From positions 1-10,269 of the forward strand of contig CAMWXF010000037.1 of assembly GCA_947178115.1 (NCBI GenBank): a stretch of 10,269 nt of DNA. The letters run 5' to 3'. This stretch comes from an uncultured Lachnospiraceae bacterium. Lineage in GTDB: Bacteria > Bacillota > Clostridia > Lachnospirales > Lachnospiraceae. Below the pieces are notes generated by a model. That model saw only the letters and a list, made by a program, of their open reading frames with translations, searched no databases and was not told where the DNA came from. Of the stretch, positions 1 to 7,756 are shown one piece after another. The translations under genes and the position numbers were made by a program. Each line of letters begins with the position of its first letter. Within the stretch, counting starts at the first letter, position 1.

Positions 1-2269
1 CATAATAGAGCTTACCGTCGTTATACTGATCCTCATAGGTAATCGTCAGCCTGTAGACACCTGCATTCTTAGGAGAAATATCAGTACTGCTCATCTCATA
101 CCAGTCGTCTTCATCTGCGGGACCCCAGCTCTCAAACCCATTTGTCTGGTTCTCCTCCTGAATCTGCGCATCCAGCAGATCATCCGCACTGTAATATTGC
201 TCCCATGTATAGGTGAACTCTCTCAACAGTGTTTTGACCGGCTCATTGCCTTCTTTTGTTTTCACACCGACAACATTCTTATACTCGCTTCTCGCGCCGT
301 AAATCGGTTTGCCGTCATAGGTCTTGGCCGTCAAATCAGCGATCGTTAAAGCACCCTTCTTATCACCGAGCAGCTTCGTGATATCGATCTCCACCTCCGC
401 ACCGGGAGTCACCTCGACCGCAATCGCCTTATCAGCTGCTGTAGGTGTAGTATCTGTCTCATAATTGTAGTCAACGCCGTTGATATTGGAATCGTCATTG
501 ACATCCGTTCTGTGGCTGTAAGTGCCGTTTGCGTTATAGATTGCCTTCTTTCCGTCATAAATAACGCGGTACTTCTTATCAGCATCTAACCTGTAGCCCG
601 CATCATCTATATTCTTCCAACTGCTGCTGTCCTCCGATTCCTGCAGTGTGAATAGAGGCTCATAGATCTGGCTCACATTGGAATCATCGAATCCGGTTCC
701 CCAGACACTGCCTGCCTTCATTGCCTTGGTAACATCTTCGGTGGTTTCCTTGCCGTCTTTATTCGTCACCTTCGTTACCTTATAGGTAATCTTAGACAGC
801 ACTTCCTGCGCGGTCGTGCCTTCCAGAACCTTCAGCGATTCCTTATTTGTTGCCTCTACCGTGAGCATCGCCGGTTCGATCTCTACATCAATCTCATCGT
901 TGCTCTTTGCATAGATTCCCTCTTCGCCTGCATAAACCACATAATAAGTATAACTGCCGGCATCTGTCGGCGGCATTACCTTGCCGTCCTGATCCAACTC
1001 GCATCCCGGATATTCCGCCCACTCTCCGGTTACCGGAACTGCCTTGTCATCCTGACCCTTGAGTTCCACATAATCATCGGAAGCTGCATCATAGTATTTT
1101 ACCACGTATGTATAATCATCCGTGAGCTTCGGTGCTTCCGCCGGCTTTCCATCATACACTTTGGCCGTTATCGAAGTTGCCTCGGTCTCCTCATCCGGTT
1201 TCCACTTATCTGTTAATTTGACCTCTACTATCGTATGAATCAGATCCGTTACCACAATATCCGCGGTAAAAGACTCTAACTCATAATTCGCATAGACTGC
1301 CTTGCGGTCTGCAGCGGCATCCGCCTTAAAGTCCGGCGTAATATCTATGACATAGTCGCCGTTTTTCTTTAATTTGGTTCCGTTCTTGATCTCCGTACCG
1401 GTTATCGCGTCTCTGACTCCAACCACGGTCAGCACCAGATCCTCCTCACTAATGGCATTCTGTGCCGATTCAACACGGCCAATCACTGGCTTTACCGTCT
1501 CCTTCAGTGTGCCCGGCGCTACCATAATCCTTCCGTCTTCATAATCACCAACCAGGATTTTTACAGGCGCCTTCGTGATCTCACAGGTCACTTTCTTCTC
1601 CGCGCCATCGTGCACATCCGTGACTGCCGGATAGGATAAAGTGAGTTCATAAGTTCCCGCATTAATCGGTTCCTCGCCTGTTGCCATAGCGGTATAGTTC
1701 CCGTCCGCACCCTGCACCTTCCATGCATAAGTCACGCCTACATCCAACGCAGGTTCCATCTCAGAGTTACCGTTTTCCGTCTTCTTAAGCTGTACGCTGC
1801 CCAGATCAAATACAGAATATCCCGTATAAACAGCTTTCGTCTCCAGATCATCCGTAACGATCTCGTATACCGGTTTCTCCGCGCGGGGTGCCGGCTCATC
1901 CACTGTAGCCGGCGTATTGTCTGCGTCCGCTGCCGCATTGCTGCCGGATGCGTTTTCTCCTGTATTTGCTGTCGCATTGTCGGCGCCGGTTACATCAGCT
2001 CCCGTATCCGCCGCCGTATCATCAGCTCCGGTTACAATCTCCTCCGTGCCTGCCGCCATGTTATCATCGCCAACCGTTGTCGCATCTGTCGATGAATCTT
2101 CCTCCGTTCCTTCGGTCGCCTGCACTGCCGCATCGTTCTCCACGGTCTGCACCCCGTCACTGCCGGGTGCCGCAAGAGCCGTTGACGGAATCATGCTGAC
2201 AACCATTGTTACTGCTAAGATCATGGCCAGAATCCGTCTGGTCTGATATAGCTTTGTTATCTTACCCAT
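1..2269 (-). CDS. Large secreted surface protein with YDG/MBG-like repeats (3' end outside window)
   Basis: An open frame of 756 codons with no stop runs off the left edge, so the C terminus and any anchor (LPXTG or cell-wall-binding repeats) are unseen. The start at 2269 has an excellent ribosome site, AAGGAGGA at 2283-2276. Residues 1-34 form a signal peptide: a basic start (MGKITKLYQTRR), a hydrophobic core and a likely cut after ALA or ALAA. Residues 35-130 are a low-complexity acidic linker rich in Ala, Thr, Asp and Gly. Beyond it, units recur. Each opens with a Y-T/D-G element (VYTGYS about 148; VYDGKP about 371; TYDGKP about 650) and ends with an AG-x-Y strand (NAGTYELTLSYP about 203; DAGSYTYYVVYAG about 436; NAGVYRLTITYED about 735). 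This pattern is typical of the YDG/MBG-type beta-sandwich repeats of bacterial surface proteins. The sequence is acidic and lacks visible enzyme motifs. Role in adhesion or surface structure is inferred. Its promoter region holds a G9 tract (see separate entry). Confidence 0.9.
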   Translation of the reverse strand, partial: MGKITKLYQTRRILAMILAVTMVVSMIPSTALAAPGSDGVQTVENDAAVQATEGTEEDSSTDATTVGDDNMAAGTEEIVTGADDTAADTGADVTGADNATANTGENASGSNAAADADNTPATVDEPAPRAEKPVYEIVTDDLETKAVYTGYSVFDLGSVQLKKTENGNSEMEPALDVGVTYAWKVQGADGNYTAMATGEEPINAGTYELTLSYPAVTDVHDGAEKKVTCEITKAPVKILVGDYEDGRIMVAPGTLKETVKPVIGRVESAQNAISEEDLVLTVVGVRDAITGTEIKNGTKLKKNGDYVIDITPDFKADAAADRKAVYANYELESFTADIVVTDLIHTIVEVKLTDKWKPDEETEATSITAKVYDGKPAEAPKLTDDYTYVVKYYDAASDDYVELKGQDDKAVPVTGEWAEYPGCELDQDGKVMPPTDAGSYTYYVVYAGEEGIYAKSNDEIDVEIEPAMLTVEATNKESLKVLEGTTAQEVLSKITYKVTKVTNKDGKETTEDVTKAMKAGSVWGTGFDDSNVSQIYEPLFTLQESEDSSSWKNIDDAGYRLDADKKYRVIYDGKKAIYNANGTYSHRTDVNDDSNINGVDYNYETDTTPTAADKAIAVEVTPGAEVEIDITKLLGDKKGALTIADLTAKTYDGKPIYGARSEYKNVVGVKTKEGNEPVKTLLREFTYTWEQYYSADDLLDAQIQEENQTNGFESWGPADEDDWYEMSSTDISPKNAGVYRLTITYEDQYNDGKLYY

Positions 2270-2335
2270 TCTCTGTCCTCCTTATATGATTTGTCTGTTA
2301 TTGGGTTACTACGCAATATAAAGACACGTAAGCCC

Positions 2336-2365
2336 ATTCTACCCCCCCCCTATAAAAAAAATCAA
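2336..2365 (-). promoter_or_regulatory. Putative promoter of the surface-protein gene with homopolymer spacer
   Basis: On the minus strand the -35 box TTGATT (2365-2360, 4 of 6 to consensus) and -10 box TAGAAT (2341-2336, 5 of 6) are separated by 18 nt (2359-2342). The spacer is six T, ATA and nine G. The start codon lies about 65 nt downstream of the -10 box, leaving a normal leader with a strong ribosome site. Loss of one G would give the optimal 17-nt spacing; gains would move the boxes further apart. A second -10-like hexamer, TATATT at 2320-2315, has no matching -35 box. The promoter is read from sequence only. Confidence 0.6.
2342..2361 (-). repeat. Adjoining homopolymer tracts (T8, then G9 on the minus strand)
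   Basis: The plus strand shows C9 at 2342-2350 and A8 at 2354-2361, separated by TAT. Read in the direction of the surface-protein gene this is T8-ATA-G9. A nine-base G/C run is the kind of tract prone to strand slippage during replication. It is placed between the putative -35 and -10 boxes and upstream of the expected transcription start, so a length change would alter promoter geometry and not the mRNA or protein. Confidence 0.9.
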
Positions 2366-2382
2366 GTGCTTTCGCTTAACTT
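2354..2382 (-). terminator. Weak candidate intrinsic terminator after the SDR-kinase gene
   Basis: Directly at the stop codon (TAA, 2378-2376) the transcript can fold into a small hairpin. A GC-GAAA-GC tip (2375-2368) sits on an AAGT/ACTT stem (2382-2379 with 2367-2364) with a three-base bulge, and eight U follow at 2361-2354. The stem is short and imperfect, so termination may be partial. The U run doubles as part of the downstream promoter's -35 box and spacer, so it may be there for that reason only. Confidence 0.35.
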
Positions 2383-4370
2383 ATCTCCATCCGCTCCCAC
2401 TTCCGTTCCATATCCGCCACAAGCGCAAGCTGTGTCCGACAGCGGTCCAGATTCTGTCCTTCCCGCTCCGTATGGTAATAGATGTCCCCTTGCAAATAGT
2501 CCGTCAGGAAACGCATGCCCTGCTCCAGCGTAATGATTTTAGCGCCCATGGGAAGCGTCTCGATCTCTTTCTCCGTCAGACTGGTACCGCACCCTGCCAG
2601 ATAGCCCTGGGCATACGCTTCGTATAATTCCAGTGAAAGAGACACTTTACTCACATCCGTTTCATCTTCTGCCGCGGTACTGGCTCCGAAACGGATCGCA
2701 TCCCCGAAGTCATAGGCGCACAATCCCGGCATAATCGTATCCAGATCCACGATGCAGACCGCCGCATGGGTCTGCTCATCCAGCAAAATATTGTTAAGCT
2801 TCGTATCATTGTGCGTAATTCTAAGCGGCAGCTCGCCCCGTTTCTGCATGTCCGTAAGAACGGACATCTCATCCCTGTGCGCTCTGATAAAATTGATCTC
2901 TTCCACCACACTGTCCGCTCTGCGGCACACGTCCTGTTCCACCGCCCGTTCAAAATCCTGATAACGTTTCGGCGTATTGTGAAAATCGGGAATCGTCTCA
3001 TGCAGCGTTTCGGCGGGATAATCCGCCAGCATCGCCTGAAAACATCCGAAAGCACGACCGTTCTCATAGAAATCTTCTTTCCGCTCCACCCGGTCTAAAG
3101 TCGTTATATGCTCAATGCAGAGATAGACCCGCCAGTCCTGTCCCTGCGCATCGGTGTAGTATGATGTACCAGCCACGGTCGGAATCACGGTCATAGTCTC
3201 CCGCTCGGGATCACCGCCCGCTTGAATGATTTTCTCCCGAAGATAGGCAGTCACATTCACAATATTTTCCATCAGCTCATCCGTATTGCGGAAAATCTCT
3301 GTATTGATTTTCTGCAGGATAAACTTACGTCCACCCTCTGTCGTCACGAGAAAAGTGTGATTGATATGCCCGCTGCCGTGCGGTTTGACCGACAGAATTT
3401 CCCGTTCCGGCAGGAAATGGGCGAAAATCTCCTTTTTCTCCACGATCTCAATATAATAATCGATCAACTCATAGATCCAGTCATGCAGTCTTGTAAACTG
3501 AAATCCCAGCTTCTGTGCCCGATCCGTATTGATACTGTAGCTCGGCTCGCCGTTATAGGGCGCCGGATCTCCCGCGCTGTCCAGAACCGCCCGCGTGTGT
3601 GTTTTCTTTTCCACATAGTCAATAATCTCCCGAAGTGAGATCGTACCGGCGGAACATCCGTTGACAGCTTTGACAGACAACTGTGCCGTCGGGTCCGCAG
3701 ACCCATGATCACCGGACAGATCAGCAACGCATGCCATATCATCCATGCCCGCCAGATAAGCCAGAAACTCTCCCGCCTCATCGGAGCGTATATAGCCCAT
3801 CTGCGCATCAATATTGTCAATATACATGGGCTGCGACTTCATGACATGTTCCACATAGAACAGCATACGGTTCGTATAATCATCCCTGCCGATCACGAAA
3901 GGATAGCGTACGGCCATCCAATTCCTGTCATCATAGCACACACGCAGCGCGCACTCCGCCTGTCTCTTAATCACGTCATACGGAAAGTCCGCCCTGTCGC
4001 ACCAGATCAGATTTTCATCCGCCCCGTCGTAATCCTCTTCCACCGTGTCCATATGCTTCGGCCGATATACCGCTGTTGTTGACATATAGAGATAGCAGCC
4101 ACAGTCGATCACTTCCATAATTGATCTGATGTCATTGGAGCAGTAAGCAATCTTATCTATAACAACATCAAAGTACTTCCCCGCAAGTGCCCTGCGCATA
4201 CTCTCTGCATCTGAGCGGTCCATGATAATCCGTTCTACCGAATCACCGAAGTCATCTCCGCTCCTGCCGCGGGTCGCTATCGTCACATGATGACCGTCCG
4301 CCAACAGTCTATGAACCATCGGAATCCCGAAAAACCTTGTACCGCCGATAACCAGAATATTTTTTCCCAT
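2376..4370 (-). CDS. Fusion protein: atypical SDR epimerase/reductase + NahK-like sugar kinase (APH fold)
   Basis: The 664-residue product is cytoplasmic, with no signal or membrane segment. Residues 1 to about 310 form a Rossmann-fold extended SDR. It has the nucleotide loop GGTRFFG (9-15, with Arg replacing the central Gly as in atypical or CSP41-like SDRs), an active-site-like STTAVY (97-102) and YxxxK as YDVIK (131-135). Residues from about 325 to 664 form a phosphotransferase domain of the aminoglycoside/choline kinase fold. It has GSGHINHTFLV as ATP loop (332-342), ILQKIN (351-356), the catalytic loop HNDTKLNN (520-527), and DLD (542-544) followed by DFGDAIR (554-560). The HNDTKLNN and DLDTIMPG wording resembles N-acetylhexosamine 1-kinases. 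A sugar kinase joined to a sugar-nucleotide epimerase-like domain fits a hexosamine or hexose pathway, but the substrate is not shown. The start lies 2 nt after the upstream stop, with only a modest AAAGG ribosome site, suggesting coupled translation. Two separate proteins by sequencing error is unlikely because the frame is continuous. Confidence 0.9.
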   Translation of the reverse strand: MGKNILVIGGTRFFGIPMVHRLLADGHHVTIATRGRSGDDFGDSVERIIMDRSDAESMRRALAGKYFDVVIDKIAYCSNDIRSIMEVIDCGCYLYMSTTAVYRPKHMDTVEEDYDGADENLIWCDRADFPYDVIKRQAECALRVCYDDRNWMAVRYPFVIGRDDYTNRMLFYVEHVMKSQPMYIDNIDAQMGYIRSDEAGEFLAYLAGMDDMACVADLSGDHGSADPTAQLSVKAVNGCSAGTISLREIIDYVEKKTHTRAVLDSAGDPAPYNGEPSYSINTDRAQKLGFQFTRLHDWIYELIDYYIEIVEKKEIFAHFLPEREILSVKPHGSGHINHTFLVTTEGGRKFILQKINTEIFRNTDELMENIVNVTAYLREKIIQAGGDPERETMTVIPTVAGTSYYTDAQGQDWRVYLCIEHITTLDRVERKEDFYENGRAFGCFQAMLADYPAETLHETIPDFHNTPKRYQDFERAVEQDVCRRADSVVEEINFIRAHRDEMSVLTDMQKRGELPLRITHNDTKLNNILLDEQTHAAVCIVDLDTIMPGLCAYDFGDAIRFGASTAAEDETDVSKVSLSLELYEAYAQGYLAGCGTSLTEKEIETLPMGAKIITLEQGMRFLTDYLQGDIYYHTEREGQNLDRCRTQLALVADMERKWERMEIS

Positions 4371-4372
4371 AC

Positions 4373-5989
4373 TTATAACCGTACCTTTCTTTTTTCTGAC
4401 TGCCTCAAAATATACTCTCCGATTCCCATGCAGATAAAAACAAACGGCGTACAGAGCACCTGCTGATAACAGAAGAAGTTATAGCACATATACGCCACTA
4501 TCGCCGCCGCGATTCCCGCCGCCATAACCTCCCGTCGATGCACGTACATAAGCCGTCTGATCTCTGTCACATAAATGCCCAGATATGCCGCCGCTCCGAA
4601 AATTCCGCCGTTAATAAGTATATTCAGCCACTCATTATGGGCATTCGTCAGCTGCTTCGTACCCCACAGCAATTCCTCTTCCTCATTATAATGCGCATTG
4701 ACATAAGAATGAAAACAGTCGGGTCCCACGCCGAAAAGCTTATGCACGACCTTTTCCTCTGCAAAAAGCTTCGCGCTGAAGCGCCATATCCTGCCCCTGC
4801 CGTTTCCCCAGTCGTCATTCCAGTTAAAATATGAGACATCCGCCAGCCGGTCGGATACCGCCTGCGGCAGCATACCTCGCGCCTGCAGACCGACCACAAG
4901 CACAATGCCCAAAACTGCGGCCGCAGCTGCAACCGGTACGATCTGCCCTGCCCTTCTCATCAAGTCCACCGGATAACATCGGTCCATGTCCTGTATCCCC
5001 ATGGCATACAGCAGAACCGTAACAGCCAGACAAATCCCAAACAAAAACCATGTAATCCACGAATCCCACATCAGCCTTGTCACAAAATCCACCTTCAGCT
5101 CCGGGTTCGGACGAATCCCTACAAGAACCGCCATAATCTTTCCCGAAGCAAAGAAGAGCGTAAGCACACCCATAAACCGGCACATCTTTGCCCTCTCTCC
5201 GGCCACTGTCACAAGTAGCAGAATCAGCGCGCCTGCCAGTGCAAAATAAGCGCTGTCGCTGTTCTGGGTCACCAGCGTACAGAAACCGAGCACAGTAAAC
5301 AAACCGCCTGCCCACAGCCATTCTTTCCGATCCGTGTGCAGAAACACACCGATGCCGACCGGCAGCGTCACGCCAAGAAAACTCCCATACCAAGACGCCT
5401 GCCCCAGAGTGGATAAGAACTGTGCTTTCTGCCCATAAGACAATCCGTCATAGAAACCGATGGGATCGATCAGTAGTCTGTGCAGAATTCCGATCCCGTA
5501 GACAATGCCGGCCGCCATGCATAACACCGTCAATATCAGGCGGTAGTATCTGCCGAATCGGGATAGCATAAGATAGAGCAGCACGAAACTAATCTGCGAC
5601 ATCAATCCCATGTTCCATCCGGTATATCCCCACAGGGCATCCTGATAAAATCCTCCGGAAATTACAGATATTCCCGATAATATCAAATATGCAAGCACAA
5701 ATCCGTCCGTGACGGATATTTGCGGTCTTCTATGTTCTTTTACCCGAAAAAAACCGTACGGTATCATTGCCATAAGCAAAACCGCACCGCCGCCAATCAT
5801 GACAGTCCGGTATGCTGCGAATTTCGCGTTGCCGATCTGATGATAACCATCCGCAGCGTAGAAGGGTACTGCGGTGCACAGAATAATCAATACTATGGCC
5901 AGCAAATACTCTATGATCTGCCCTGTGACTTGAACTCCGGTACCCGCAGAATCTTTCTTCTGATCATTCTTTACAATCTTATTGCTCAT
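4373..5989 (-). CDS. O-antigen ligase/polymerase family membrane protein (second paralog)
   Basis: The product is a 538-residue multi-pass membrane protein with roughly 12-14 hydrophobic segments, beginning about residues 26-46 and ending about 506-525. Between about 371 and 450 lies a long, presumably extracytoplasmic loop with NDDWGNGRGR (391-400), GVGPDCF (420-426) and LTNAHNE (447-453). His451 starts an exact match to the WaaL motif H[NSQ]-x9-G-x-x-[GTY] (HN, nine residues, G462, G465). WaaL and Wzy family members transfer or polymerise undecaprenyl-linked glycans outside the membrane. In a Gram-positive host the likely roles are polymerising or attaching a surface polysaccharide, or glycosylating protein; sequence alone does not separate these. 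It shares block after block with the upstream gene (STLG, VTQ.SDSAY, DWGNGRG, GPDCF, NAHNE, QQVL.TP, MGIGE), so the two arose by tandem duplication. Gaps are 3 bp upstream and 2 bp downstream. Confidence 0.88.
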   Translation of the reverse strand: MSNKIVKNDQKKDSAGTGVQVTGQIIEYLLAIVLIILCTAVPFYAADGYHQIGNAKFAAYRTVMIGGGAVLLMAMIPYGFFRVKEHRRPQISVTDGFVLAYLILSGISVISGGFYQDALWGYTGWNMGLMSQISFVLLYLMLSRFGRYYRLILTVLCMAAGIVYGIGILHRLLIDPIGFYDGLSYGQKAQFLSTLGQASWYGSFLGVTLPVGIGVFLHTDRKEWLWAGGLFTVLGFCTLVTQNSDSAYFALAGALILLLVTVAGERAKMCRFMGVLTLFFASGKIMAVLVGIRPNPELKVDFVTRLMWDSWITWFLFGICLAVTVLLYAMGIQDMDRCYPVDLMRRAGQIVPVAAAAAVLGIVLVVGLQARGMLPQAVSDRLADVSYFNWNDDWGNGRGRIWRFSAKLFAEEKVVHKLFGVGPDCFHSYVNAHYNEEEELLWGTKQLTNAHNEWLNILINGGIFGAAAYLGIYVTEIRRLMYVHRREVMAAGIAAAIVAYMCYNFFCYQQVLCTPFVFICMGIGEYILRQSEKRKVRL

Positions 5990-5992
5990 ACA

Positions 5993-7756
5993 TCACTTTT
6001 CCCACGTTTCTGTTAACCCGTCTTCCGCACGCTTGGCCATACTTCGACAGAGCCGTTCCCCGATCCCCATGACGATAAAAATATAAGGCGTATTGAGCAC
6101 CTGCTGAAAACTGACCATACCGTGTACCGCATACGCCAATATGCCCACCGCGCACATATACAGAAGCGGCTGTTTATCCGCCCTGCGCATACATCTTAGG
6201 AACGCGCTCAGAAAGAGTCCCAGATAGCACAGAAAACCAATCGCTCCCACATTGACAAGCTGTGTAAGCAGCTCATTATGCGCATTAGTCAGCCGTTGAT
6301 TGGTAAAGCTGTCCGCCAGCCTCTGCGCCAGCATGGGCACGTCATACACATAATCCGCGAAACAATCCGGTCCTATGCCCACAACCTTATGTAGTGTATC
6401 CATGTTCCGGTACGCGTCGATACCACAATTCCACGCGGCTCCTCTGCCGTTTCCCCAGTCTTCGTTAAAGATAAGCAGGAACCCGCTCTCTTCCTCCGCT
6501 GTCCCTGCCGCTCCCCTGACATGAAGAATACCGTTGTGAAACAGATAAGCAGTTACAACACAGAATAATACAACACTCACACCTACCGCGACAACGCCCC
6601 TCTGCCTGTGCTTTCCCATATAAGGTCCTCGCAACAGACGCCAAATACCCGTGCTGGCAGAACCGTCCGCCTTGCTGCCCGCAAAAATATAAGAAGCCCT
6701 GTCCAATCCACGAAGCAGTCCATAACATAGTATAAGAATTGCAAGTGCCCACAGTATGACATTGCCGTCAAACAGCGCCGCAGTAATACGCGATCCTCCG
6801 TCTGCCGGTTCGTAATTATAATCCAGTGCCGGGATATATCGCAGAACCCGCCCTAACCGGCAACTTACGGCAAACATCATGCACAGCTCCAGAAAGCGAT
6901 ACATCTTATGACCGTTATGAAACGATAACAGAAACAAAACAATAAATATTATAGCAAAAACAAGATATGCACTGTCACTGCCCTGCGTCACACCACTGAG
7001 CATAGCAATCATACTATAAATACCTGCAGGCAGACGAGCCCACCCGCCGGCGCTGCACCAATACCATGCGATTCCGATCGATGCCGCCACAGACCAGTAA
7101 CCGCAGAACCAATTGATGTTACCAAGCGTAGAAATAAATGTATCTGTCTGTCCCTCCATCACGATCGGATAGACAGAATACCGATTGCAGATTCCCAACA
7201 GAAATACCACCGCCGATGCCGCCAGCCATACCTCGATCCAACCTCTGTTTTGATAAAAATAACGGGAGAAAAAGAAATAGAGCAGTACAAATATCATCTG
7301 CGTGACGGTTCCCATGTACCATCCCTCCACTCCCCAGAGCGCATCCTCCTTATAAGCAGAGCCGAGATACGACAGCATCACCGCGACAAAATACCCGTAG
7401 GCAAACCAGTCCGTGACAGACATCGTCTGATAATGCTTTACCAGCCAGTGCCCATCCCGCCGGCACAAAACCGCTGCCACAATGACGACTGCCATCACCG
7501 CAATCGTTGTCAAGCTGATGTTTCGGAAAAGCTCATACTTCACATCACCGATCAGTGTATAGCCGCCCGGCGCATAGAAAGGGTATATCAACACCATCAC
7601 AAGGAAATATGCCATCATAATCCCTTGGCAGATATCCGTGTGCCAGCCACCCTTTTCACTCTCCGCCATCACCGCGTCCGACTCCGGCAAATCTTCCGCT
7701 AATTGTTCCGCATTTGTCTGTTCTGATTCAATACAATTTCGTTCCGTTCTTTTCAT
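5993..7756 (-). CDS. O-antigen ligase/polymerase family membrane protein (first paralog)
   Basis: The 587-residue product is paralogous to the next gene. After an acidic cytoplasmic tail (about 1-40) come roughly 12-14 hydrophobic segments from about 43-63 to 550-568. Key blocks are ALWGVEGWYMG (139-149), FISTLGNINW (207-216), VTQGSDSAY (256-264), NEDWGNGRG (431-439), GIGPDCF (460-466) and LTNAHNE (489-495). His493 begins an exact WaaL-type motif, HN-x9-G-x-x-G (G504, G507). Both paralogs keep the motif His and the GRG Arg, so both look active. They differ in the loop between GPDCF and NAHNE and in this protein's long insert (about 355-385). The ribosome site before ATG 7756 is weak (ATCGG). 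Met30, preceded by GGAGT, is a less likely alternative start that would remove much of the acidic tail. It is first of a three-gene block with 3-bp and 2-bp gaps. Polymerase, ligase or protein oligosaccharyltransferase roles remain open. Confidence 0.88.
   Translation of the reverse strand: MKRTERNCIESEQTNAEQLAEDLPESDAVMAESEKGGWHTDICQGIMMAYFLVMVLIYPFYAPGGYTLIGDVKYELFRNISLTTIAVMAVVIVAAVLCRRDGHWLVKHYQTMSVTDWFAYGYFVAVMLSYLGSAYKEDALWGVEGWYMGTVTQMIFVLLYFFFSRYFYQNRGWIEVWLAASAVVFLLGICNRYSVYPIVMEGQTDTFISTLGNINWFCGYWSVAASIGIAWYWCSAGGWARLPAGIYSMIAMLSGVTQGSDSAYLVFAIIFIVLFLLSFHNGHKMYRFLELCMMFAVSCRLGRVLRYIPALDYNYEPADGGSRITAALFDGNVILWALAILILCYGLLRGLDRASYIFAGSKADGSASTGIWRLLRGPYMGKHRQRGVVAVGVSVVLFCVVTAYLFHNGILHVRGAAGTAEEESGFLLIFNEDWGNGRGAAWNCGIDAYRNMDTLHKVVGIGPDCFADYVYDVPMLAQRLADSFTNQRLTNAHNELLTQLVNVGAIGFLCYLGLFLSAFLRCMRRADKQPLLYMCAVGILAYAVHGMVSFQQVLNTPYIFIVMGIGERLCRSMAKRAEDGLTETWEK

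Follow-up and report, generated by a model that had tools for sequence, protein, structure and literature searches.

A poly-G tract in the -35/-10 spacer of a probable phase-variable promoter of a secreted-protein gene in Lachnospiraceae

The window, that is, the whole analysed stretch of 10,269 nt, is a contig of a MAG (371 contigs, 2.13 Mb, 64% complete) of an uncultured Lachnospiraceae bacterium. The gene proposed as the controlled one (positions 2..2269, minus strand) encodes a large secreted protein of at least 756 amino acids and extends beyond the contig end. No Pfam or NCBIfam family matched the part of this protein encoded in the window, and one Big_2 domain was found in a homologue; of its initial annotation as a secreted repeat protein, it is the secreted part that is supported, by a signal peptide judged by eye. 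The gene upstream (2376..4370, minus strand) comprises, according to domain matches, epimerase-like and APH-type phosphotransferase domains in one open reading frame (ORF), and its stop codon is separated from the -35 box by 10 nt. Two adjacent genes at 4373-7756, also on the minus strand, match the O-antigen-ligase-like family Wzy_C, here in a Gram-positive lineage, the second of them below the Pfam cut-off. A Wzy_C-type ligase-like gene is also found at locus L122 directly before a surface-protein homologue without a start region, the homologous stretch following directly after the ligase gene.

Read directly from the window letters on the minus strand, positions 2365-2336 are TTGATT TTTTTT ATA GGGGGGGGG TAGAAT. 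This layout comprises a -35-like hexamer TTGATT (2360..2365, minus strand, as are all features of the promoter), matched by TTGNNN in the same position in most homologous promoters, an 18-nt spacer composed of T6, ATA and G9 (2342..2359), and a -10-like hexamer TAGAAT (2336..2341). The G9 tract, which is the proposed slippage site, abuts the -10 box (2342..2350) and corresponds to G7-G13 in homologues; a T8 run with two of its bases within TTGATT (2354..2361) is interrupted in the closest relative, G012, where one T is replaced by G. Directly 3' of the -10 box lies TTACGTGT (2324..2331), which in several orthologues is the right arm of an inverted repeat; the left arm, situated there upstream of the -35 box, is absent in the window. 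A Shine-Dalgarno-like AGGAGG occupies 2277..2282, and the promoter layout ends 66 nt upstream of the ATG at 2269. When the minus strand was re-read, the boxes, the tracts and the 18-nt spacing proved to be exactly as initially claimed, and a homopolymer of at least 7 nt, the mark of a porA-type slippage promoter, is indeed located between the -35 and -10 boxes.

The boxes coincide with the consensus in 9 of 12 positions, which does not exceed chance (the window contains 18 sites of this kind vs. a mean of 15.3, s.d. 4.6, in shuffled sequences), as would be expected if the match were accidental, the gene were transcribed from elsewhere and the G run were a mutational curiosity. Unlike the box match, the G9 run and its placement exceed chance. 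As the box match alone is at the chance level, the case for a promoter rests on the comparison with relatives.

Runs of seven or more Gs occur at three places only in the 2.13-Mb assembly, every one of them being exactly G9; a second-order Markov model (24.9 kb of the same genome) predicts approximately 24 G7, 4 G8 and 0.7 G9 runs vs. 0, 0 and 3 observed. The layout TTGNNN...G7...TANAAT applies to two of these three: the promoter in the window and a promoter in contig 102 (TTGACA, 19 nt, TATAAT), which precedes an ORF for a secreted protein of at least 2136 amino acids. The third run is situated before a gene for a GntR-type regulator. Tracts of G9, G10 and G11 are found just upstream of this GntR-type gene in three species (G000:C66:5298-5306, i.e. 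L224; L188; L048), hence the regulator may be phase-variable too.

Matches to the surface protein were observed in 17 of the 77 genus genomes, the genome of the window included; the comparison set contained one genome per species. A G7-G13 run was present just upstream of 22 of the 26 homologue starts examined (one G7, five G9, eight G10, seven G11 and one G13), so the position of the tract is conserved among the homologous promoters, as in the porA type, which speaks against an accidental match. The four starts without a tract, which would agree with such a match, are L117, represented by junk sequence at a contig end, L126, where TTGACA and TATAAT separated by 17 nt (counted by eye) are found instead, and L124 and L127, where neither a tract nor an evident substitute was seen. 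Outside these 26 starts, the layout search lists G9 just before the start in G075:C11, and L137 begins at a contig end. Spacers in the surface-gene family range from 16 to 22 nt (partly counted by hand from printed sequences), and the L116 promoter is without a clear -35 box.

The nearest relative at the locus, G012 (96% over 281 bp), also has G9, as do all of four related promoters (L008, L229, L091, L092). Unequal tracts with similar flanks were observed for G012 and G011 (G9) vs. G054 (G10), and for G044 (G13) vs. G075 (G11); in L222 (G045:C13), three tandem poly-G promoters approximately 1 kb apart (G11, G10, G11) each precede a similar secreted-protein start. These length differences, a further property of the porA type, are seen between species and between paralogues only. 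A G004 scaffold has a gap within a homologous promoter, with an identical 13-bp flank on each side and a tract that reads G9 on the broken end and G11 on the opposite one, and contigs of G048 and G050 start at the promoter, within approximately 165 nt of the start of the surface-gene homologue; these are weak hints of length heterogeneity, and homopolymer assembly trouble would look alike. In G004 and G007, four assembly gaps (L165, L178, L212, L219) are bordered by poly-G on either side, which points to such tracts as sites where assemblers break.

The layout TTGNNN-N{4,13}-G7-TANAAT yielded 77 matches, or 74 sites after three nested matches were dropped, in 41 of the 77 genus genomes; in the family, with genomes drawn evenly, it was found in 36 of 299 (or 34 of 297 once the two from the same genus are set aside). 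The backward pattern, which controls for direction and composition, not for function, gave no match in either set, and with the tract placed alike before most homologue starts we regard an accidental box match as highly improbable. With spacers of 21-25 nt there were five matches, two of them holding an inner TTGACA, vs. one in the control.

Runs of G8 or more are present in 76 of the 77 genus genomes, with 1 to 95 per genome, as counted in draft genomes, some of which are contaminated up to 7%. Within 182 kb around the tracts of G003, G004 and G007, runs of four to seven Gs number 501, 83, 12 and 0, and runs of eight to thirteen Gs number 7, 8, 44, 8, 2 and 1, respectively. The distribution is bimodal, long runs forming a separate class; the stretches were selected for tracts of at least 8, and this selection explains neither the empty class at 7 nor the mode at 10. 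MutS domain I was detected in 74 of the 77 genomes, the remaining three being only 66-68% complete. This rules out loss of mismatch repair as the cause of the tracts, and slippage need not be fast. In viral contigs, tract lengths are equal within each of four same-flank pairs. The related promoters of viral L252, L257, L260 and L261 (G8, G8, G7 and G10), which have AATTGC ... GCAATT arms around them, are possible slippage promoters in phages.

The initial annotation took G8, which would give a 17-nt spacer, for a stronger state than G9. This is doubtful, as poly-G promoters peak at 19 nt and ordinary ones at 17 nt. For poly-G promoters of the genus with TTGAC boxes, the spacer is 19 nt in 28 of 44 and 17 nt in 3 of 44, with a spread of 14-20 nt (the 30 of 74 sites without TTGAC boxes were left out; 37 of all 74 are at 19 nt), whereas ordinary TTGACA...TATAAT pairs from two genus genomes have their peak at 17 nt (48 of 116) and only 4 of 116 at 19 nt (Fisher test, p ~7e-16 for 19 nt and ~9e-6 for 17 nt, related promoters being treated as independent). 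The 116 control rows came from G004 and G011, with four poly-G rows removed, one nested pair kept, and rows of six other genomes left out. Outside the genus, the spacers are spread over 14-20 nt with no sharp peak (36 sites; search limited to at most 20 nt); the family sample comprised 54 rows, of which 47 were kept after removal of five already in the genus and two identical G287 copies.

The prefix and the tract sum to 19 nt in 28 cases vs. 13.9 expected by free combination, and none of 20,000 shuffles was as high; the variance of the sums is no smaller than in the shuffles (p = 0.24). The captured tract state in the genus is not random, and base change at the tract edge together with shared ancestry can yield the same excess. 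Either a weak state was captured in most of the sampled genomes, or the functional length of a G-tract spacer is greater. Since poly-G promoters peak at 19 nt, the working length may be longer than 17. The 18-nt state of the window is likely active.

The sharp 19-nt mode, the excess of sums beyond all shuffles and the equal G9 in G000 and G012 could also mean that the tract has a fixed structural role in the promoter, as stiff, A-like G-tract DNA or as a protein site, held at one length by stabilising selection and involving no switch. In that case one would not expect sums as variable as in the shuffles, a surface-gene family with spacers of 16-22 nt and tracts of G7-G13, or a family-wide sample spread across 14 to 20 nt. 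Similar tracts also occur within coding sequences: for tracts with at least 60 open codons on either side (n = 23), 14 have the flanking frames in one frame and 9 have them out of step. We therefore consider a fixed structural part unlikely, and a tract of switching length remains the preferred reading.

The census of the 182 kb around G003, G004 and G007 covers 78 tracts. Setting aside 8 beside assembly gaps, which the classes exclude, 8 count as promoter tracts under a strict rule, which overlooks weak boxes such as TTGCTT; 14 fall within a single open frame, 9 between open frames that do not join, and 39 are intergenic or near ORF ends. The profile scan took in 10 of the 19 tract-bearing ORFs, which included three methyltransferases (one of the FkbM type), MBOAT, WcbI, ATPgrasp_ST, a hexapeptide transferase, a citrate lyase ligase, an ORF whose AMP-binding match is below the cut-off and another that matched nothing. 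As for the ORFs following tract-bearing promoters (seven, hand-picked), five have a signal peptide by eye, and the other two encode a GntR-type regulator and a membrane protein; Pfam matches identified a FIVAR protein and a DUF285/leucine-rich-repeat protein. The earlier assignment of the controlled gene to the class of switched surface genes holds to the extent that, in the cases looked at, the layout mostly precedes genes for secreted proteins. Flagellin-like genes of three genomes (L195, L172, L208, the last matching Flagellin_N) have G10 directly before TAAA(A)ATG, where it might act on the translation start.

The poly-G promoter of the surface-gene orthologues L038, L040, L033, L029 and L031 lies between inverted arms ACACGTAA ... 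TTACGTGT, which are 8 to 14 nt long. If these arms were repressor operators, the tract could tune their mutual arrangement and not the box spacing alone, as in nadA, whose tract is flanked by NadR operators (PMC2791445). Exact arms of 11 to 14 nt are found in 3 of 73 promoters vs. approximately 0.3 expected by mispairing, and in L031 the two arms, although both differ from the usual sequences, still pair; however, the left arm is missing both in the window and in G012, the arms of L037 do not pair, one arm differs in L033, and most of the 73 promoters have no arms at all, which makes control through operators improbable for this promoter. Inverted repeats as a general feature of poly-G promoters are rejected for the same lack of arms in most of the 73. 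An invertible promoter is rejected as well, as the left arm is absent in the window and all 22 of the 22 homologous tracts read as G towards the gene.

We consider it probable that the poly-G tract is the slippable part of the -35/-10 spacer, forming a porA-like phase-variable promoter for the gene of a secreted, surface-type protein. Gs would be gained or lost in the tract through replication slippage, the changed number of Gs would alter the distance between the -35 and -10 boxes, and transcription would thereby go up or down at random among cells. The part of the initial annotation that called the promoter phase-variable gains from the tract being conserved in orthologues and paralogues, from its length differing between species, and from the genus-wide recurrence of the layout with an empty backward control. 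What the analysis establishes is the anatomy, the retention of the tract in this promoter and the length differences between species and between paralogues; slippage among the cells of a population, an effect of it on transcription and the identity of the ON length are inferred.

The best reading is that this promoter is part of a set of poly-G tracts spread across the genus, in secreted-protein promoters and within surface-glycan genes. More tentatively, such promoters may be tuned to approximately 19 rather than 17 nt, because RNA polymerase would read a G-tract spacer as about 2 bp shorter, and may form part of a multi-locus poly-G phasome of these gut Lachnospiraceae, with as many as 95 tracts of at least G8 in a genome, some in promoters for giant secreted proteins and others within surface-glycan genes. 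Should the tracts slip, random surface changes would occur in a group of gut bacteria, which would matter for resistance to phages, for antibody binding and for strain differences within the gut; slippage, if real, would be readable directly from existing metagenome reads.

A porA-like promoter switch is of a known kind, here in an unexpected lineage; no report of poly-G promoter switching in Lachnospiraceae was found in a literature search of titles and abstract openings among the best-ranked matches, with most subscription papers and preprints outside its scope. In porA of Neisseria meningitidis, 11G gives high surface expression, 10G approximately 2-fold lower and 9G 13-fold lower (PMC3639595); here as well, a surface protein is preceded by a G tract of comparable length at the equivalent position between the -35 and -10 boxes, whereas the host is a Gram-positive Lachnospiraceae member, the switch is a putative one, and the commonest spacer with strong boxes in the genus is 19 nt. 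The tp0126 promoter of Treponema pallidum likewise has poly-G within the -35/-10 spacer and is transcribed best at 17 nt (as told in PMC7864442), but it belongs to another phylum, and here dozens of tracts per genome are seen in many relatives.

The nearest gut case is the pilus of Bifidobacterium breve, where poly-G slippage takes place in a gut commensal and G tracts within promoter spacers are also mentioned (PMC9187656); unlike the promoter in the window, the pilus switches described there restore a reading frame, and the host belongs to Actinobacteria. The nadA repeat of N. meningitidis has flanking repressor operators (PMC2791445), comparable to the arms of some orthologues described here, and is situated upstream of the promoter, unlike the tract of the window, which lies in the spacer. 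Within Clostridia, phase variation is known from the invertible promoters of Clostridioides difficile (PMC11868660), where the switch is a site-specific inversion and not slippage as proposed for the promoter in the window.
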